Assembly (NCBI GenBank): GCA_031254155.1
Contig: JAIRVA010000277.1
Location: 1 to 35,717 of the forward strand
DNA length: 35,717 nt
Source: Propionibacteriaceae bacterium
GTDB taxonomy: Bacteria; Actinomycetota; Actinomycetes; Propionibacteriales; Propionibacteriaceae
Reading direction: 5' to 3'
A program made the position numbers and the translations under genes. Every line of letters begins with the position of its first letter. Position 1 is the first letter of the stretch. The notes beneath the pieces were generated by a model. That model ran no database searches. It was not told the DNA's origin and saw only the letters and a list, made by a program, of their open reading frames with translations. Shown in pieces: positions 3,676 through 10,139 of this stretch.

Positions 3676-4917
3676 CTAGCGAACGAGGTCGATCGTCACG
3701 GTGCCACCGGCGGGGTTGACCGCCGCGAGCAGGGTCCACGGGATGCGGTACACCCGGCCCGGGGCGACTGGATACGACGTGGTGACCCGGCCGATCTCGC
3801 TGCCGCCTTGGCGGGCCACGATGGTTGGTCGTTTTCGTACCTCGGTGGGCCACGCGAGCACAAACCCGCGCGCGGGGGCGACGTCACCGGGTACGCACCG
3901 GGTCGGTGATACCCAGGCGAAGGCGTCGCCCGCCACCAATGGGACCGGTGTCCCGGAGGTCCGCTCGCCCCGCAGGTAACCCAGGACGGGCTCCGCCACG
4001 TGGGCCCCGTCCAGCGCCGCACAGTCGGCGGTGTCGACGGGGTGGACGAGGTTGCCGATGGCGAAGACGCCGTCCCGATCCGTCCGCAACCGGGTGTCGA
4101 CGCTTGGCCCCAGCGTGGCGGGATCGAGGGCGATCCCGGCCGACCGGGCCAGCTCGTGATCCGGAATCCAGTCGCCGGTGAAAACGACCGTGTCGCACTC
4201 GACGACCCGGCGCTGACCGGTTTGCAGATCCTCCACCTCGACGCCGGTGACCCGGCCGTGACCGATGACACGGACGACCTTCGTCCGGGGTGCCACGGGT
4301 ACCCGCAGGCCGATGCCCCCGGCGACGGTGAACAGACGGTACGCCTCGGAGGCCGCGTACTGTGTGGTCATCAGCACGGGCCGGCACCCGGCGTGGCGCA
4401 GGGTCAGGACCGCCGACCAGCTTACGAGCTCGCCACCGACGATGACGGCCCGGCTGCGTTCCGGGCGGTGGTGCAGGTACACCAGGTTCTGCAACTGGCC
4501 CGTCGTGTAGACCCCCGCCGGCCGGTCACCCGGGATCCGGCGGGCGCTCCGTGGGCGCTCCCGGGCGCCGGTGGCGAGGATGACCGCATCCGCGGCCACC
4601 TCGTACCGACCCTCAGGCGATGTCACGCAGAGCGCCCCAGCCCCGGTCCAACCGGTGACCATGGCGTGCGTGACAATGTCGGCCCCGGCTTGCCGGGCCC
4701 GGTCGCTGAGGAGGCGCGCGTACTTCGGCCCGGTCATGAACCGGTGCAGGTCACGGATGCCGTAGCCGGGGTGGTGGCAGTGGCGGGGGATACCGCCGGG
4801 GGCCGCCTCCCGGTCGAGCACCAGCACCCCGCCCTTGAGCGCGGGCGCCAGTTCAGCCGCCGCTCGCAGCCCGGACGGTCCGGCCCCGACAATTGCAACT
4901 TTGGTTTTCGTGATCAT
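3676..4917 (-). CDS. GlpB-like FAD/NAD(P)-dependent oxidoreductase
   Basis: The 413-residue protein opens with an FAD-binding dinucleotide motif (VAIVGAGPSG, GxGxxG at 11-16). The segment GGIPRHCHHPGYG is typical of the family of the GlpB subunit of anaerobic glycerol-3-phosphate dehydrogenase and opine or hydroxyproline oxidase alpha-type subunits. A second nucleotide-binding region follows (ILATGARERPR, then AVIVGG), and then the FAD signature DGVFAIGNL. About 80 C-terminal residues beyond this form a beta-rich tail of unknown role. Start at 4917: AAAGGAG lies 6 bases upstream, and the ATG overlaps the TGA of the GlpA-like gene (ATGA), implying translational coupling. It is probably the partner subunit that passes electrons from the GlpA-like enzyme. 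Some family members instead work with a small DUF1667 protein, which is absent here. Confidence 0.85.
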   Translation of the reverse strand: MITKTKVAIVGAGPSGLRAAAELAPALKGGVLVLDREAAPGGIPRHCHHPGYGIRDLHRFMTGPKYARLLSDRARQAGADIVTHAMVTGWTGAGALCVTSPEGRYEVAADAVILATGARERPRSARRIPGDRPAGVYTTGQLQNLVYLHHRPERSRAVIVGGELVSWSAVLTLRHAGCRPVLMTTQYAASEAYRLFTVAGGIGLRVPVAPRTKVVRVIGHGRVTGVEVEDLQTGQRRVVECDTVVFTGDWIPDHELARSAGIALDPATLGPSVDTRLRTDRDGVFAIGNLVHPVDTADCAALDGAHVAEPVLGYLRGERTSGTPVPLVAGDAFAWVSPTRCVPGDVAPARGFVLAWPTEVRKRPTIVARQGGSEIGRVTTSYPVAPGRVYRIPWTLLAAVNPAGGTVTIDLVR

Positions 4918-6290
4918 GCCTGGCTCCTTTCGTTGGCGAGCAGAGTTTCCACTGCGGCGCCACAGAAAAACCCTTGACAGCGGCCATTGGTCGCGCGGGT
5001 CCGCCGGCGCAGACCGCCGAGGGTCCGGGCCGGGACTGTCGACTGGCAGGCGTCGCGGATCTCGCCCCGCGTCACTCGTTCGCAGAAACAGACGACCTCG
5101 CCGTACGCCGGGTCGCGCCGGATCAGTGCGTCGTCCTGGTACGGTCGCCGGCCGGCCTCGCCCAGGTTGGGCAGCCGCGGCGGGTCCGGGAGGTCGTCCC
5201 GGGGCGTCACGTCCAGCCCGGCCCCGGCCAGGAGGTCGGAGACGTGCGCGGCGACCGCCAGGCACGAGGTCAGGCCCGTCGACCGGATGCACCCCGCCAG
5301 GAGGTACGTCCGGTCGGCATCGGCCTCGATGAGGTAGTCGGTCTGGTCGTGGGCGGCCCGCAACCCGGCGTAGGCGGCGGTCACTTCCTCGGCCATGAGA
5401 TCCGGTACGAGGGCCGCGCCCTTGCCGAGCAGGAAGTCGAAACCCGCCTCCGTGGTCGCGGTGTCGGCCCGGTCGGTCATGTCCTCGGCGGTCGGCCCGA
5501 CCATCACGTTGCCGTAGATCGTCGGGCTGACCAGGACGCCCTTGCCGAGCTTGCTCGGGACGGGCAGAACGATGAGCGGCACCTTTTCCCTGGCCAACTT
5601 GTCGAACACGAGCAGTTCGCCCCGCCGGGGGTGGAGGTGGAACCGGTCGTACCCCGCCTGGGCATCGAGTGTGTCCCCGCCCAGCCCGGCGGCGTTGATG
5701 AGCCACCGCGTCCGCAGGGGTCCGGCGGTGGTGTCGAGCGTCCACCCCTCCCCGGTCCGAGTGAGCCCTTGGACCTGGGTGTCGAGGTGCAGGGTCGCGC
5801 CCCGCTGGACGGCGTCAGTGGCCAGCGCAATCGTGGTCGACCACGTACAGATGATGGACTCACCGGGGACGCTGAGCCCGCCGCGGGCCCCGGGTCCCAG
5901 GTGGGGGGCCGCCTCGTACACCGCGGCGGCGTCGACGATCGCCGTCGCCTGGTAGCCGTTCGCCCGCGCCTTGTCGGCCAGGCCGGGCAGGGCGGCCTGT
6001 TCCTCGTCGGTCCACGCCACCAGCAGCGCGCCCGTCCGCTCGACCGGGATCCCGGTCTGGGCGGCGTACTCACCCAGCCGGTGGTACCCCTCGGCGACCA
6101 GCCGGGACTCGAGCGTCCCGGGCGAGGCGTCGTAGCCGGTGTGCAGGATCGCCGTGTTGGCCTTGCTCGTTCCGTCCCCGACATCGGAGCGGCCATCGAC
6201 CAGTCCGACGCTGAGGTGGCAGCCCGCCAGTTCGCGGGCGATTGCGGAGCCGATCAGGCCGGCCCCGATGACGACAACGTCGTACCTCAT
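4914..6290 (-). CDS. GlpA-like FAD dehydrogenase with C-terminal BFD [2Fe-2S] domain
   Basis: The 458 residues contain a DAO-type FAD fold starting with VVVIGAGLIGSAIAREL (GxGxxG at 9-14) and the segment GTSKANTAILHTGYD, seen in glycerol-3-phosphate dehydrogenases of the GlpA type. At the C-terminus a bacterioferritin-associated-ferredoxin domain carries the four cysteines of a [2Fe-2S] centre: CFC at 401-403, then Cys438 and Cys443. The family oxidises glycerol-3-phosphate or similar 2-hydroxy compounds, passing electrons through FAD. The ATG at 6288-6290 overlaps the kinase stop by 4 bp and the stop overlaps the next ATG, so translation is coupled on both sides. With the kinase upstream, the likely substrate is the kinase product. 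Whether this is sn-glycerol-3-phosphate is not certain. Confidence 0.88.
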   Translation of the reverse strand: MRYDVVVIGAGLIGSAIARELAGCHLSVGLVDGRSDVGDGTSKANTAILHTGYDASPGTLESRLVAEGYHRLGEYAAQTGIPVERTGALLVAWTDEEQAALPGLADKARANGYQATAIVDAAAVYEAAPHLGPGARGGLSVPGESIICTWSTTIALATDAVQRGATLHLDTQVQGLTRTGEGWTLDTTAGPLRTRWLINAAGLGGDTLDAQAGYDRFHLHPRRGELLVFDKLAREKVPLIVLPVPSKLGKGVLVSPTIYGNVMVGPTAEDMTDRADTATTEAGFDFLLGKGAALVPDLMAEEVTAAYAGLRAAHDQTDYLIEADADRTYLLAGCIRSTGLTSCLAVAAHVSDLLAGAGLDVTPRDDLPDPPRLPNLGEAGRRPYQDDALIRRDPAYGEVVCFCERVTRGEIRDACQSTVPARTLGGLRRRTRATNGRCQGFFCGAAVETLLANERSQA

Positions 6291-7720
6291 TTTGTGTCTC
6301 CTTCTACTCCAGTGGTGTCGGCCAGTCGGTGCCAGTGCTCGCGGAACGTACCCGCCCGGTCGGCGCTCCAGGCGGGCGTGAACGTCCGTTCCGGAGCCCA
6401 GGCGACGATCGTGTCGGCGAGGTCCCGCGCCGGGTCGAGCGCCTTGCGGGCCAGCGCGACCGCCCCCAGCGGGGTGGCGTGCGCGGACGGGTAGACGTCG
6501 ATTTCGAGCTGGGCGATGTCGGCCACCGCCTGCATGAACCGGGCGCTGCGGGTCAGCCCGCCGTCGACGCGCAGCCGGGCGAGCGGCTGGCCCGAGTCGC
6601 GCCCGACGAGATCGCCCAGTTCGGCGACCTGGGCCGCGAGGCCCTGCAGGACGGCGGTGACCAGATCGGCGCGAGTCGTCGCCAGGCTGATCCCGGTGAA
6701 CAGAGCCTGGGCGTCGGGGCGCCACCAGGGCGCGGCGAGCCCCGCCATGGCCGGTACGCACCAGGCGCCGTGGGCGTCGTCCGTGGTGAGGACGTCCAGT
6801 TCCTCGGGCCCGGCGAGCAGGCCGACGTCGCCCAGCCAGCGGATGGCCGAGGCGGCGGTGTAGACCTGCCCGTCGGAGCAGTACGAGGTCCGCCCGTCGA
6901 CCCGCCAGGCCACGGACACGGTCAGCCCCGACGTCGACCGGGTGGCGTGCTCGCCGAGGTTGGCCAGCAGGAACGCCCCCGTACCGAACGTACACTTGGC
7001 CTCGCCCGCCGTCAGGCAGCGCTCGGCGAGCAGGGCCGCCTGCTGGTCCACCACGACCCCGGCGACGGGTACGGCCGGCCCGAACCGGCTCGTCTCCCCG
7101 ACGATCTCGTCGTTGGCCACGATCCGCGGCATCGCTTCGCCGTGGAGACCAAACAGGGCCAGCAGCTCCTCGTCGTACGTCACCGTGTCCAGGTTGGTCA
7201 CGAGCGACCGGCTGGCCGTGGACGCGTCGGTCACGTACTCACCCGTCAGGTGGTGCAAGAGCCAGGCGTCAGAGGTCGAGACGACCCCCGCCGTCGTGGC
7301 GTGGCGGCGCAGCCAGGCGAGCTTGGGGGCGCTGAAGTACGGGTCGAGCACCAGGCCCGTCCGAGCAGCGATGAGGCCGGCGTGCTCGCGCAGCGGCTCG
7401 CAGATCTCGCTGGCCCGGGAGTCCTGCCAGACGAGCATGCTCGTGAGCGGCTCGCCCGTCGCCGGGTCCCACGCGAGCACCGTCTCGCCCTGGTTGGTCA
7501 GGGTGACCGCGTCGATGGTGACCCCCGCCTCGGCAATTGCCCGGGTGGCCGCGACCATGACGGAGTCGAGCAGCTCGGCGGGGTCCTGCTCGACGATGCC
7601 ACCTTGCCGGTACTGCGGCCGGATCGGGATCTCGACGACGGACCGGATGGCGTCATCAGCCCCGACGACCATCGCCTTCGTGCCCGACGTACCCTGGTCG
7701 ATACTCAGAATCCACGTCAT
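6287..7720 (-). CDS. FGGY-family carbohydrate kinase, glycerol-kinase-like
   Basis: The 477-residue protein opens with the phosphate-binding strand of FGGY kinases (ILSIDQGTSGTKA) and follows the glycerol kinase pattern: LVWQDSRA, GLVLDPYFSAPKL, VVVDQQAALLAE, TFGTGAFLL and LRVDGGLTRS. Of the glycerol-binding residues known in E. coli GlpK, the Tyr (DPYFS), the Asp (VDQQ) and the Phe (GTGAF) are kept. The Arg-Glu pair (NQRET) is Gly-Glu here (NQGET, Gly78). That may widen or change specificity, so glpK is not assigned. The ATG at 7718-7720 overlaps the permease stop by 4 bp. It probably phosphorylates the compound imported by the permease and feeds the GlpA/GlpB-like enzymes. Confidence 0.88.
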   Translation of the reverse strand: MTWILSIDQGTSGTKAMVVGADDAIRSVVEIPIRPQYRQGGIVEQDPAELLDSVMVAATRAIAEAGVTIDAVTLTNQGETVLAWDPATGEPLTSMLVWQDSRASEICEPLREHAGLIAARTGLVLDPYFSAPKLAWLRRHATTAGVVSTSDAWLLHHLTGEYVTDASTASRSLVTNLDTVTYDEELLALFGLHGEAMPRIVANDEIVGETSRFGPAVPVAGVVVDQQAALLAERCLTAGEAKCTFGTGAFLLANLGEHATRSTSGLTVSVAWRVDGRTSYCSDGQVYTAASAIRWLGDVGLLAGPEELDVLTTDDAHGAWCVPAMAGLAAPWWRPDAQALFTGISLATTRADLVTAVLQGLAAQVAELGDLVGRDSGQPLARLRVDGGLTRSARFMQAVADIAQLEIDVYPSAHATPLGAVALARKALDPARDLADTIVAWAPERTFTPAWSADRAGTFREHWHRLADTTGVEGDTK

Positions 7721-9261
7721 GCCGACTCCCTCCCGGCGGCCACGGCCACCTCGTCCAGATCGGCCTCGTCCAGTTCCTTGTCGATGTCCTTCATCTCGGG
7801 CATGGTCAGGCCGGCGCGGCCGTGGCGGATCATGAGGTACGCGAAGTACACCCCGCCGATGGCCAGCAGAATCAGGATATACAGCCAGCACTCACGGAAC
7901 GAGACGTCGCGGAAGATCGCCAGCTCCCAGACCAGCCAGACGGCCGCGGCGATGAGCACGGGGATCTCCCACTTGCCGAGCTTGAAACCCTTGGATGGCG
8001 GGAGCGACTTGCGCTTGACGATGTAGAGCAGCGTCGTACCGGCGTAGATCAGCGCCGGCAGCAGCGTGGCCGCCGAGAACAGGGAGAACAGCGCGTCGGT
8101 CGAGTACAGGGAGAAGATGGCGAGGACCAACTCGCCGATGATCAGCATGAAGACCATGGCGTTGAGCGGCGTACCCGTACCCTTGTTGACCCGGTGCAGA
8201 GCCTGCCAGCCGGGGAACCGCCGGTCGCGCGACATGGCCCAGACCAGCCGGGCGCCGCTCATGGAGATGGTGAGACCGCAGGAGAAGATGGAGATGACCA
8301 CCATGACGAGCAGCGCCTTGCCGACCACGCCGCCCAGCACGTTCGAGATGACGGAGGCGATCGGGGTGTCGGACTGGGCGAGTTCGATCAGGTTGCCACC
8401 GTTGGCCGTCACCGCGATGATGAAGAGCATGCCCAGGACGCCGAGGGACAGCACGGCCTGCCACATGGCCCGCGGTACCGTCCGGGCGGGGTCCTTGGTC
8501 TCCTCGGCCAGGTTGGCGGCCGACTCGAAACCGACGATGGTGAAGGCGCCGAGCAGGAAACCCATCGCCCACGGCCCGGCGTGCGTCCACGTCCCGATTG
8601 AGAAGTAGCCCGCCTCCGGGATCGCACCTGTCGAGAACAGGTTGGACCACTGGAACTTGCCGGTGGCGATCCCCACGATGAAGAGCAGGACCGTCAGCAG
8701 GATCATGCCGACGAGCTGGATGGTCACGGCCACGTTGTTGGTCCGCTGGGTGGCGCGGGTCGACCAGGCGACCATGATCGCCTGGAGGAGGATCACGACG
8801 GCAGTGATCAGCCACGCGTTCATCGTCGTACCTTGGTAGCTGAACAACACCGGCAGGATCGTGGACGCGATCGTGTAGTCGACGGCGACGACCACCACGC
8901 CCAGGAACATGAACGACACCCAGCCCATGATCCAGCCCAGGATGGGGTTGGCGAGGCGGGAGATCCATTGGTACGAGTAGCCGCTGACCGGGATCCGGGC
9001 CGCGAGGGCGCCGAAGACCAGGGCGACCGCGGTCTGGCCCAGGGTGACGATCGCCCAGGTCCAGATCCCGCGCGGGCCGGCCGTGTTGAGGACGGTACCG
9101 TACGTGGTGAAGATGCCCGTGGCGATTGACACGAAACCGAACGCGACGGCGAACGAGGTGTACCACCCCAGCCGTCGGGGCATTTCCTGTTTGTAGCCGA
9201 ACTCGGCAATGGCGGCGGCGTCGGCGTCGGCAGACGTCGGGCGGGATGGGTTAGAATCCAC
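7717..9261 (-). CDS. APC-superfamily amino acid/amine permease
   Basis: A hydrophobic 514-residue protein with about 12 predicted membrane segments. The N-terminal segment EMPRRLGWYTSFAVAFGFVS leads into the first helix and is typical of the APC subgroup that includes GABA and choline-type permeases. The helix 6 region with GFESAANLAEETKDPAR matches the conserved glycine- and acidic-rich APC motif. The GTG at 9261 is chosen because AAGGAG at 9270-9275 lies 8 bases before it; an ATG at 9279 would put the ribosome site inside the gene. The perfect palindrome AGTGATCACT lies between the ribosome site and the GTG. It opens a four-gene coupled run with the kinase and two FAD enzymes. Polyol kinases are usually paired with facilitators or ABC/PTS importers, so this pairing suggests an amine-bearing or unusual substrate (inference). 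Confidence 0.9.
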   Translation of the reverse strand: MDSNPSRPTSADADAAAIAEFGYKQEMPRRLGWYTSFAVAFGFVSIATGIFTTYGTVLNTAGPRGIWTWAIVTLGQTAVALVFGALAARIPVSGYSYQWISRLANPILGWIMGWVSFMFLGVVVVAVDYTIASTILPVLFSYQGTTMNAWLITAVVILLQAIMVAWSTRATQRTNNVAVTIQLVGMILLTVLLFIVGIATGKFQWSNLFSTGAIPEAGYFSIGTWTHAGPWAMGFLLGAFTIVGFESAANLAEETKDPARTVPRAMWQAVLSLGVLGMLFIIAVTANGGNLIELAQSDTPIASVISNVLGGVVGKALLVMVVISIFSCGLTISMSGARLVWAMSRDRRFPGWQALHRVNKGTGTPLNAMVFMLIIGELVLAIFSLYSTDALFSLFSAATLLPALIYAGTTLLYIVKRKSLPPSKGFKLGKWEIPVLIAAAVWLVWELAIFRDVSFRECWLYILILLAIGGVYFAYLMIRHGRAGLTMPEMKDIDKELDEADLDEVAVAAGRESA

Positions 9262-9303
9262 AGTGATCACTCCTTGCATGCTTGCTTGTGGGGGTTTGAT
9301 TCG

Positions 9304-9333
9304 CGTGGGGAGGCGTTGCCGCGCCTCCCCACG
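9304..9333 (-). terminator. Hairpin between the DeoR gene and the permease operon
   Basis: Perfect 12-bp inverted repeat (CGTGGGGAGGCG and its complement) with a 6-base loop, starting 5 bases after the DeoR stop. No T-run follows on the minus strand. Only about 25 bases separate it from the ATG at 9279, too few for a full promoter. It may act as an attenuator or processing site that lowers operon transcription relative to the regulator, rather than as a true end. Confidence 0.6.
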
Positions 9334-9338
9334 ACTCT

Positions 9339-10139
9339 TTACTGCGCAACGATGACGGTGGCCCCTCCTCGTTGGACGGCCGTACGCAGGACGGCGGGTG
9401 GTTCCTCGTCGGTGATGAGGGCTGTGAACGAGTCCCAGCCGGCGACGTGGTAGGGCGCGATCCGGGCGAACTTGGTCGCGTCGGCGAGCACGAAGGTACG
9501 GGCGCTGTTCCGCATCATCGCCCGCCGGGTCGCGATTTCATCGAGGTGGAAATCGGTCAGCCCGGAGGTGGGATGGACGCCACCTGAGCCAAGGAAGGCC
9601 AAGTCAACCCGGAGATCTTCGAGCAAGCCGATTGCGTACTGGCCCGCGGTGGCCAGGTCGTCGGAGCGGAGGCGGCCGCCGGCGACGAGCACGGTCGCGT
9701 GGGGGCACCGCGCCAGTTCGATGGCAACGGGTAGCGAGTTCGTGGCGACGAGGCCGCGGAACGAGGCGGGGATCGCGGCGGCGACGCAGAGGGCGGTGGT
9801 ACCGACGTCGAGGAACAGCGTCGACTCGTCACTGACCAGACGGGCGGCGGCCTGGCCGATGCGCGCTTTGCCCGTACCCTGGGCGGAGGTACGGTCATGG
9901 AAAGACGGTTCAACGCTCAGCCGCTGTCCGGCGGCGACCGCGCCGCCGTGGACCCGCTCCAGCGCGCCGTCGCGTTCCAGCGCCGCCATGTCGCGGCGAA
10001 CCGTCTCGACGGAAACCCCCAACTCGTCCACGAGATCCTGGGTTCGGACCACTCCTAAGTCGGCAAGTTTCCGGCGGATAACCGACCGCCGGGTGACGGG
10101 TAGCGCGCTGCCCGCAGCAGTCTCCTGTTGACTGACCAT
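9339..10139 (-). CDS. DeoR-family transcriptional regulator
   Basis: The 266 residues have an N-terminal DeoR winged helix-turn-helix (about 17-72). It includes the family signature around VVRTQDLVDELGVSVETVRRD and the LERVHGGAV hinge. A DeoRC sugar-phosphate sensor domain follows (LFLDVGTTA, TNSLPVAIEL, GSGGVHPTSGLTDF and the late LADATKF). Family members typically repress sugar or polyol catabolic operons and are released by a phosphorylated intermediate. It lies immediately upstream of, and in the same direction as, the permease-kinase-oxidoreductase genes, so it is the likely local regulator. The ATG at 10139 has no ribosome site; a -10 box ends 6 bases before it, so the mRNA is probably leaderless. 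Three 10-bp repeats overlap that promoter and suggest autorepression. Confidence 0.93.
   Translation of the reverse strand: MVSQQETAAGSALPVTRRSVIRRKLADLGVVRTQDLVDELGVSVETVRRDMAALERDGALERVHGGAVAAGQRLSVEPSFHDRTSAQGTGKARIGQAAARLVSDESTLFLDVGTTALCVAAAIPASFRGLVATNSLPVAIELARCPHATVLVAGGRLRSDDLATAGQYAIGLLEDLRVDLAFLGSGGVHPTSGLTDFHLDEIATRRAMMRNSARTFVLADATKFARIAPYHVAGWDSFTALITDEEPPAVLRTAVQRGGATVIVAQ

Follow-up and report, generated by a model that had tools for sequence, protein, structure and literature searches.

Which compound does an operon serve when its kinase and flavoproteins resemble those of glycerol degradation and its transporter belongs to a family of amine carriers? The question is raised by five genes on the minus strand of contig C69 of an actinobacterial draft genome (3.05 Mb, 92.7% complete); the whole contig, 35,717 nucleotides in length, is referred to here as the window, and the nearest named relatives of the operon lie in Propionibacteriaceae and Propionicimonas. 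The genes follow one another in the order DeoR regulator, APC permease, FGGY kinase, GlpA-like protein with a BFD domain, and Pyr_redox_2 flavoprotein. Judged from sequence comparison, the operon probably serves the breakdown of a short amino alcohol, a class that includes serinol and aminopropanediol. Ethanolamine itself is the leading candidate, an identification that we make tentatively. More tentative still is the complete scheme, an undescribed B12-independent route of ethanolamine use in which an FGGY ethanolamine kinase would form phosphoethanolamine and a GlpA-type flavoprotein pair would convert it to glycolaldehyde phosphate; the route would be present in many actinobacterial families and would have a parallel version with a choline-kinase-like enzyme and added aldolases. 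Ethanolamine is a major nutrient derived from membrane lipids, and the only routes of its use that we know of begin with a B12-dependent ammonia-lyase or with gamma-glutamylation.

A preliminary description of this DNA had four genes fused by ATGA overlaps behind a deoR gene, and the coordinates bear this out: stop/start overlaps at 7717-7720, 6287-6290 and 4914-4917 link the APC, kinase, GlpA-like and GlpB-like genes (Table 1), and 59 bases separate the deoR stop from the APC start. The importer is indeed an APC permease, as had been proposed, and no aquaglyceroporin (GlpF), GlpC-like or MOX gene was seen in the operon. The operon in the window likewise contains no epimerase or isomerase gene, no ethanolamine ammonia-lyase and no glutamine-synthetase-like gene.

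Table 1. Positions of the operon genes and associated features in the window, with the basis for each assignment.
Feature	Coordinates	Strand	Basis
DeoR/GlpR-type transcriptional regulator, 266 aa	9339..10139	-	Pfam DeoRC E 3.7e-44 + HTH_DeoR
13-bp hairpin between deoR stop and APC gene	9304..9333	-	terminator-like scan (match on + strand)
APC permease, 520 aa; proposed amino-alcohol importer	7717..9279	-	PF13520 (AA_permease_2) E 4.6e-47
FGGY kinase, 477 aa, in a clade apart from GlpK; proposed amino-alcohol kinase	6287..7720	-	FGGY_N/C
Gly78 codon GGC, in NQGET, at the position of GlpK Arg83	7487..7489	-	sequence
GlpA-like DAO flavoprotein with C-terminal BFD [2Fe-2S] domain; proposed phosphate-ester oxidoreductase	4914..6290	-	PF01266 E 2.1e-59
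BFD-like [2Fe-2S] domain of the GlpA-like protein	4935..5096	-	PF04324 E 1.4e-10
Pyr_redox_2 flavoprotein ('GlpB-like'); proposed electron-transfer partner of the GlpA-like protein	3676..4917	-	PF07992 E 7.9e-23

The kinase is related to glycerol kinase and is distinct from it. It scores 374.6 bits against a cut-off of 590.35 on the GlpK model TIGR01311 and 346.7 against 498 on NF000756, reaching neither; the canonical GlpK of the same genome scores 740.5 and 773.7 bits on the two models. GlpK has five signature residues, Arg83, Glu84, Tyr135, Asp245 and Phe270 (PMC3245297). The preliminary description had reported a glycine in place of the arginine and retention of most substrate residues, and both observations hold well beyond this single protein: all 51 kinases of its clade carry the signature Gly-Glu-Tyr-Asp-Phe, with the four other GlpK residues unchanged, and all 12 canonical GlpKs of the genus carry Arg-Glu-Tyr-Asp-Phe. 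The 51 proteins form one clade separate from GlpK (Shimodaira-Hasegawa-like approximate likelihood-ratio support, SH-aLRT, 99) in a quick tree that was made without bootstrap and gave long-branch warnings for the outgroups. A canonical glpK is found elsewhere in the window genome (C292) with an MIP channel gene beside it, so that the check suggested along with the preliminary description speaks for that description, and a canonical GlpK (match E < 1e-100) is present in 48 of the 53 kinase-bearing genomes searched, the other five having no clear one. The clade kinase is therefore an addition to GlpK, and the idea that it replaces GlpK was rejected. A single-sequence AlphaFold model of the kinase was unusable (mean predicted local distance difference test score, pLDDT, 38).

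Two further kinase genes deserve mention. At L064 (G025:C210:16017-17432) a relative with a broken signature, GAQGT, adjoins a DeoR gene with no GlpA or GlpB present; it may be a pseudo-kinase or reflect a sequence error, and it was excluded from the tree. The window genome also holds a third GlpK-like kinase (L074, G000:C62), whose signature reads REMDS; with a set of ABC transporter genes next to it, this looks like another polyol locus.

What points to an amino alcohol is the company that the kinase keeps in other genomes. First, in seven loci (L053-L059) the APC gene is absent and an EutH gene lies between the kinase and GlpA. The EutH of L056 matches PF04346 with E 5e-130 and shares 54% identity with its Listeria and Clostridioides counterparts; L053 and L056 both pass the NF011666 cut-off. 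The Clostridioides eutH that was checked has eutA, eutB and eutC as companions in a eut operon. EutB, the ethanolamine ammonia-lyase, is absent from all seven genomes, so their EutH serves no EutBC elsewhere; moreover, the seven kinases are one clade nested inside the APC-type kinases of the tree, which argues that the transporters were exchanged within one pathway. Second, two genomes (L082 and L107, whose kinases share 65% identity) have eutB together with an Opp-type ABC set upstream of the operon, on the far side of a GntR gene, and at L082 eutC is, in our reading of the sequence, recognizable behind eutB. Third, a second lineage (L103) has the order DeoR-kinase-GlpA-GlpB-EutH, its kinase being only 33-37% identical and having the same Gly signature. 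Together these three associations argue for an amino alcohol, and EutH and eutB favor ethanolamine. They also make it very likely that, as had been suggested, this is a catabolic operon for a glycerol-like and probably amine-bearing compound.

The APC permease of the window is nearest to the ACT (2.A.3.4) and urea-carboxylase-permease models (TIGR03428, 200 bits; TIGR00907, 172 bits; both under cut-off) and reaches none of the curated subfamily cut-offs. An APC gene of this type is located just before the kinase in 16 loci (one gene before it at L083). In Streptomyces-like loci an APC gene of another kind lies close by on the opposite strand. The Streptomyces permease near the kinase was considered as the reported glnA4-linked ethanolamine permease, a candidate that was rejected because no glutamine synthetase genes lie beside it (three genomes of one genus).

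The two oxidoreductases had been likened to GlpA with a BFD cluster and to GlpB. The BFD domain is present (Table 1), while the GlpB label is weak, there being no GlpB model among the matches listed for the Pyr_redox_2 partner, whose gene immediately follows that of GlpA at almost every locus. Nor is GlpA the closest family of the first protein, which scores 113.4 bits against 552.8 for the GlpA equivalog and a higher 222 against 460 for type 2 glycerol-3-phosphate (G3P) oxidase (NF033460), both under cut-off; glycine oxidase and sarcosine oxidase models are also among its profile matches. The closest solved structure is the Mycoplasma G3P oxidase 4x9m (E 3e-35), and the aligned equivalents of His51 and of Lys258, Arg320 and Ser348 (Mycoplasma GlpO numbering), the last three of which we take to be catalytic, are kept in all kinase-clade GlpA-like proteins checked. 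GlpO His51 has been proposed as the base that deprotonates the C2 hydroxyl (PMC10726252). Two loci (L083 and L084) combine a kinase of the same clade with one DAO protein instead of the GlpA-GlpB pair; this protein has neither a BFD domain nor a GlpB partner, a pattern that would be expected if electrons there go directly to oxygen.

A related arrangement, which also counts in favor of an amino alcohol, is found in three genomes of one genus (L108-L110), where EutH is clustered with GlpA-like/BFD and GlpB-like proteins, an APH/choline-kinase-like protein, a class II aldolase, a HAD protein and a transaldolase-like protein (L108:4721-12384 and L110:728-9772; L109 was judged by its similarity to L108). 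His51 is missing from the DAO proteins at L103, L108 and L110, which hints at a different chemistry; those of L108 and L110 have Asn at this position.

In the pathway that we propose, the APC permease, or EutH in the relatives, would import the amino alcohol, as the transporter families and the exchange of their genes suggest. The FGGY kinase would then phosphorylate the primary hydroxyl. With the positive charge of Arg83 lost to Gly, Glu79 (GlpK Glu84) may be free to hold the ammonium group, and ethanolamine has neither a third carbon nor the hydroxyl that glycerol bears there. Glycerol, ethanolamine and serinol would present the enzymes with one shared feature, a phosphorylatable CH2OH next to a carbon bearing OH or NH2, and the GlpA-like flavoprotein would oxidize the carbon beside the phosphate-bearing CH2, as in G3P; phosphoethanolamine would thereby yield glycolaldehyde phosphate and ammonia, and serinol phosphate would yield dihydroxyacetone phosphate (DHAP) and ammonia. 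The BFD [2Fe-2S] domain would hand electrons on to the Pyr_redox_2 flavoprotein, by analogy with GlpAB and GlpTk-NOX, and DeoR, to judge from its family, would sense the phosphorylated intermediate.

Several points weigh against an ethanolamine pathway. First, the seven EutH loci are one clade, count as one evolutionary event and were located via their kinase. Second, the EutH proteins of L103 and L108-L110 are of a different lineage, 32-36% identical to those of L053 and L056, and may have another substrate. Third, eutB is not enriched in kinase-bearing genomes (8/49 vs 51/395), and a genome-level association of the kinase with EutB was rejected on these counts. Fourth, a separate eutB-eutH operon (C353) already provides for ethanolamine in the window genome, where the kinase operon would thus be redundant for this substrate. 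Finally, the His51 equivalent that is kept in GlpA, as a base for a C2 hydroxyl, would be a better fit to an alcohol than to an amine, and the kinase operons have no recurrent neighbor, aldolase or otherwise, that could serve as a sink for glycolaldehyde phosphate. The intact G3P site and the lack of an aldolase together favor a three-carbon substrate over ethanolamine.

Such a substrate could be an amino diol, serinol or 3-amino-1,2-propanediol, which would still be a short amino alcohol and forms part of the probability given to that class; taken separately, we regard it as unlikely. Serinol phosphate has the shape of G3P with an amine at C2, and the G3P site of GlpA would convert it to DHAP and ammonia with no further enzyme, in keeping with the full set of G3P-oxidase residues and with the lack of a recurrent extra downstream enzyme, which extends to the small genomes G246 and G264 (~1.2-1.3 Mb). 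EutH of the type found in eut operons and the neighboring eutB indicate ethanolamine instead, and serinol is far rarer than ethanolamine. It is nonetheless a natural compound, found for example in the Campylobacter capsule (PMC12096443).

It seems improbable that the operon is a second ordinary pathway for glycerol or for an amine-free polyol, in which the kinase would make G3P, GlpA would make DHAP and the transporters would have been recruited for polyols. A canonical GlpK is already there in 48/53 genomes, that of the window included with its MIP channel gene; Arg83 is lost in 51/51 clade members; the operon of the window has no visible aquaglyceroporin; and APC and EutH both come from families of amine carriers. 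These features have to be set against the top family scores, which are those of glycerol kinase and type 2 G3P oxidase, the retention of 4/5 GlpK signature residues and of all G3P-oxidase residues, the 5/53 kinase-bearing genomes without a clear canonical GlpK, and the locus L102 (8050-10681), where EutH of a different lineage adjoins a TIGR01679 FAD-linked oxidoreductase of the sugar-lactone/alditol oxidase kind. The preliminary description had favored a glycerol-like compound over glycerol itself; GlpA keeps its G3P-oxidase residues, however, so that glycerol and serinol remain candidates. Highly improbable is the reverse order, with the flavoproteins acting first to remove the amine from an amino alcohol and the kinase trapping the resulting dihydroxyacetone, glyceraldehyde or glycolaldehyde. 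Many amine oxidases do have the DAO fold, and glycine and sarcosine oxidase models are among the profile matches, but what the GlpA-like protein conserves is the residue set of an oxidase whose substrate, G3P, is already phosphorylated.

Many families have loci with the order DeoR-APC-kinase-GlpA-GlpB, so the arrangement is well beyond chance, and a close relative of the kinase is found in 49/395 genomes of the class. All 18 other genomes of the same genus lack a close orthologue, and what matches best in them is ~35% identical and mostly canonical GlpK; in one of them (G017) the HAD-sortase-ilvD neighbors are kept, followed by other genes after ilvD. Operon copies are also located on Streptomyces plasmids, and Streptomyces sp. 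NBC_00376 has a kinase 63% identical to that of the window. The plasmid copies and the absence from genomes of the same genus suggest an accessory operon that has probably passed from one lineage to another. Clustering of neighboring genes gave no recurrent extra enzyme beside the core, the small clusters being mostly generic ABC, SDR or HAD proteins or shadow reading frames. The operon had been described as new; it is common in actinobacteria, and in that sense is not, but a search of open-licence papers on the operon, on phosphoethanolamine oxidation and on glycolaldehyde phosphate with ethanolamine returned nothing on it. The enzyme families and the logic of phosphorylating and then oxidizing are already known; the literature searched gave no description of the clade to which the kinase belongs, of the exchange of transporters or of the class of substrate that is implied.

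The closest parallels are GlpK with GlpABC and the GlpTk-NOX-MOX system (PMC11962113), which share with the operon the grouping of a kinase gene with two flavoprotein genes behind it, the first of the DAO type, as well as a BFD domain for electron transfer and the G3P-site residues; the possible likeness to GlpTk-NOX-MOX is one of protein types, the operon having a DAO protein and an NADH-oxidase-like flavoprotein and no MOX gene. Unlike the glycerol pathway, the operon has Gly for Arg83 in every kinase, an APC or EutH transporter and no GlpF, GlpC or MOX gene, and in most genomes it stands beside a separate canonical GlpK. The type 2 oxidase of Mycoplasma shares the catalytic His with the GlpA-like protein, which differs from it in the added BFD domain and second flavoprotein and in its score below the family cut-off. 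In the erythritol pathway of Brucella, EryB is a GlpD-like dehydrogenase acting after EryA, so that an FGGY kinase and an FAD dehydrogenase working on the phosphorylated product are again combined. EryA derives from rhamnulokinase (PMC3245297), whereas the operon kinase groups near GlpK and has no epimerase or isomerase gene beside it in the window. With EutBC-dependent ethanolamine use, with or without a microcompartment, the operon shares EutH in seven relatives and an adjoining eutB in two, but it has a kinase and flavoproteins instead of B12 chemistry, and the seven EutH-bearing genomes have no EutB. Ethanolamine use through GlnA4 in Streptomyces, which begins with gamma-glutamylation by a glutamine-synthetase-like enzyme (PMC6529630), is likewise actinobacterial and B12-independent, with a permease unlike EutH or Eat; the operon in the window has no gene for such a synthetase. 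If our proposal is true, machinery for glycerol degradation has been re-tooled for a small amino alcohol in many actinobacteria, FGGY kinases and G3P-dehydrogenase-like flavoproteins gain an amine substrate, and a kinase-plus-flavoprotein route explains why host-associated Actinomyces, Gleimia and Trueperella have EutH without EutB.

The eutB-eutH contig of the window genome (L099, G000:C353:1-11930) also carries small open reading frames that in our reading resemble eut microcompartment genes; no Eut microcompartment was reported among the Actinobacteria surveyed in PMC6620236, and the contig is possibly a contaminant, though its GC content (0.67) matches. Partial eutB genes lie at the ends of two other contigs (L100 and L101, G000:C54 and C185) and are possibly the halves of a second eutB copy.

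At the borders of the operon, the next gene downstream is, in our reading of the gene list, ilvD, and the DeoR regulator at the upstream end reaches none of the NCBIfam equivalog cut-offs. The hairpin directly behind the deoR stop has no T run behind it in the direction of the operon, and is a candidate attenuator, processing site or operator.

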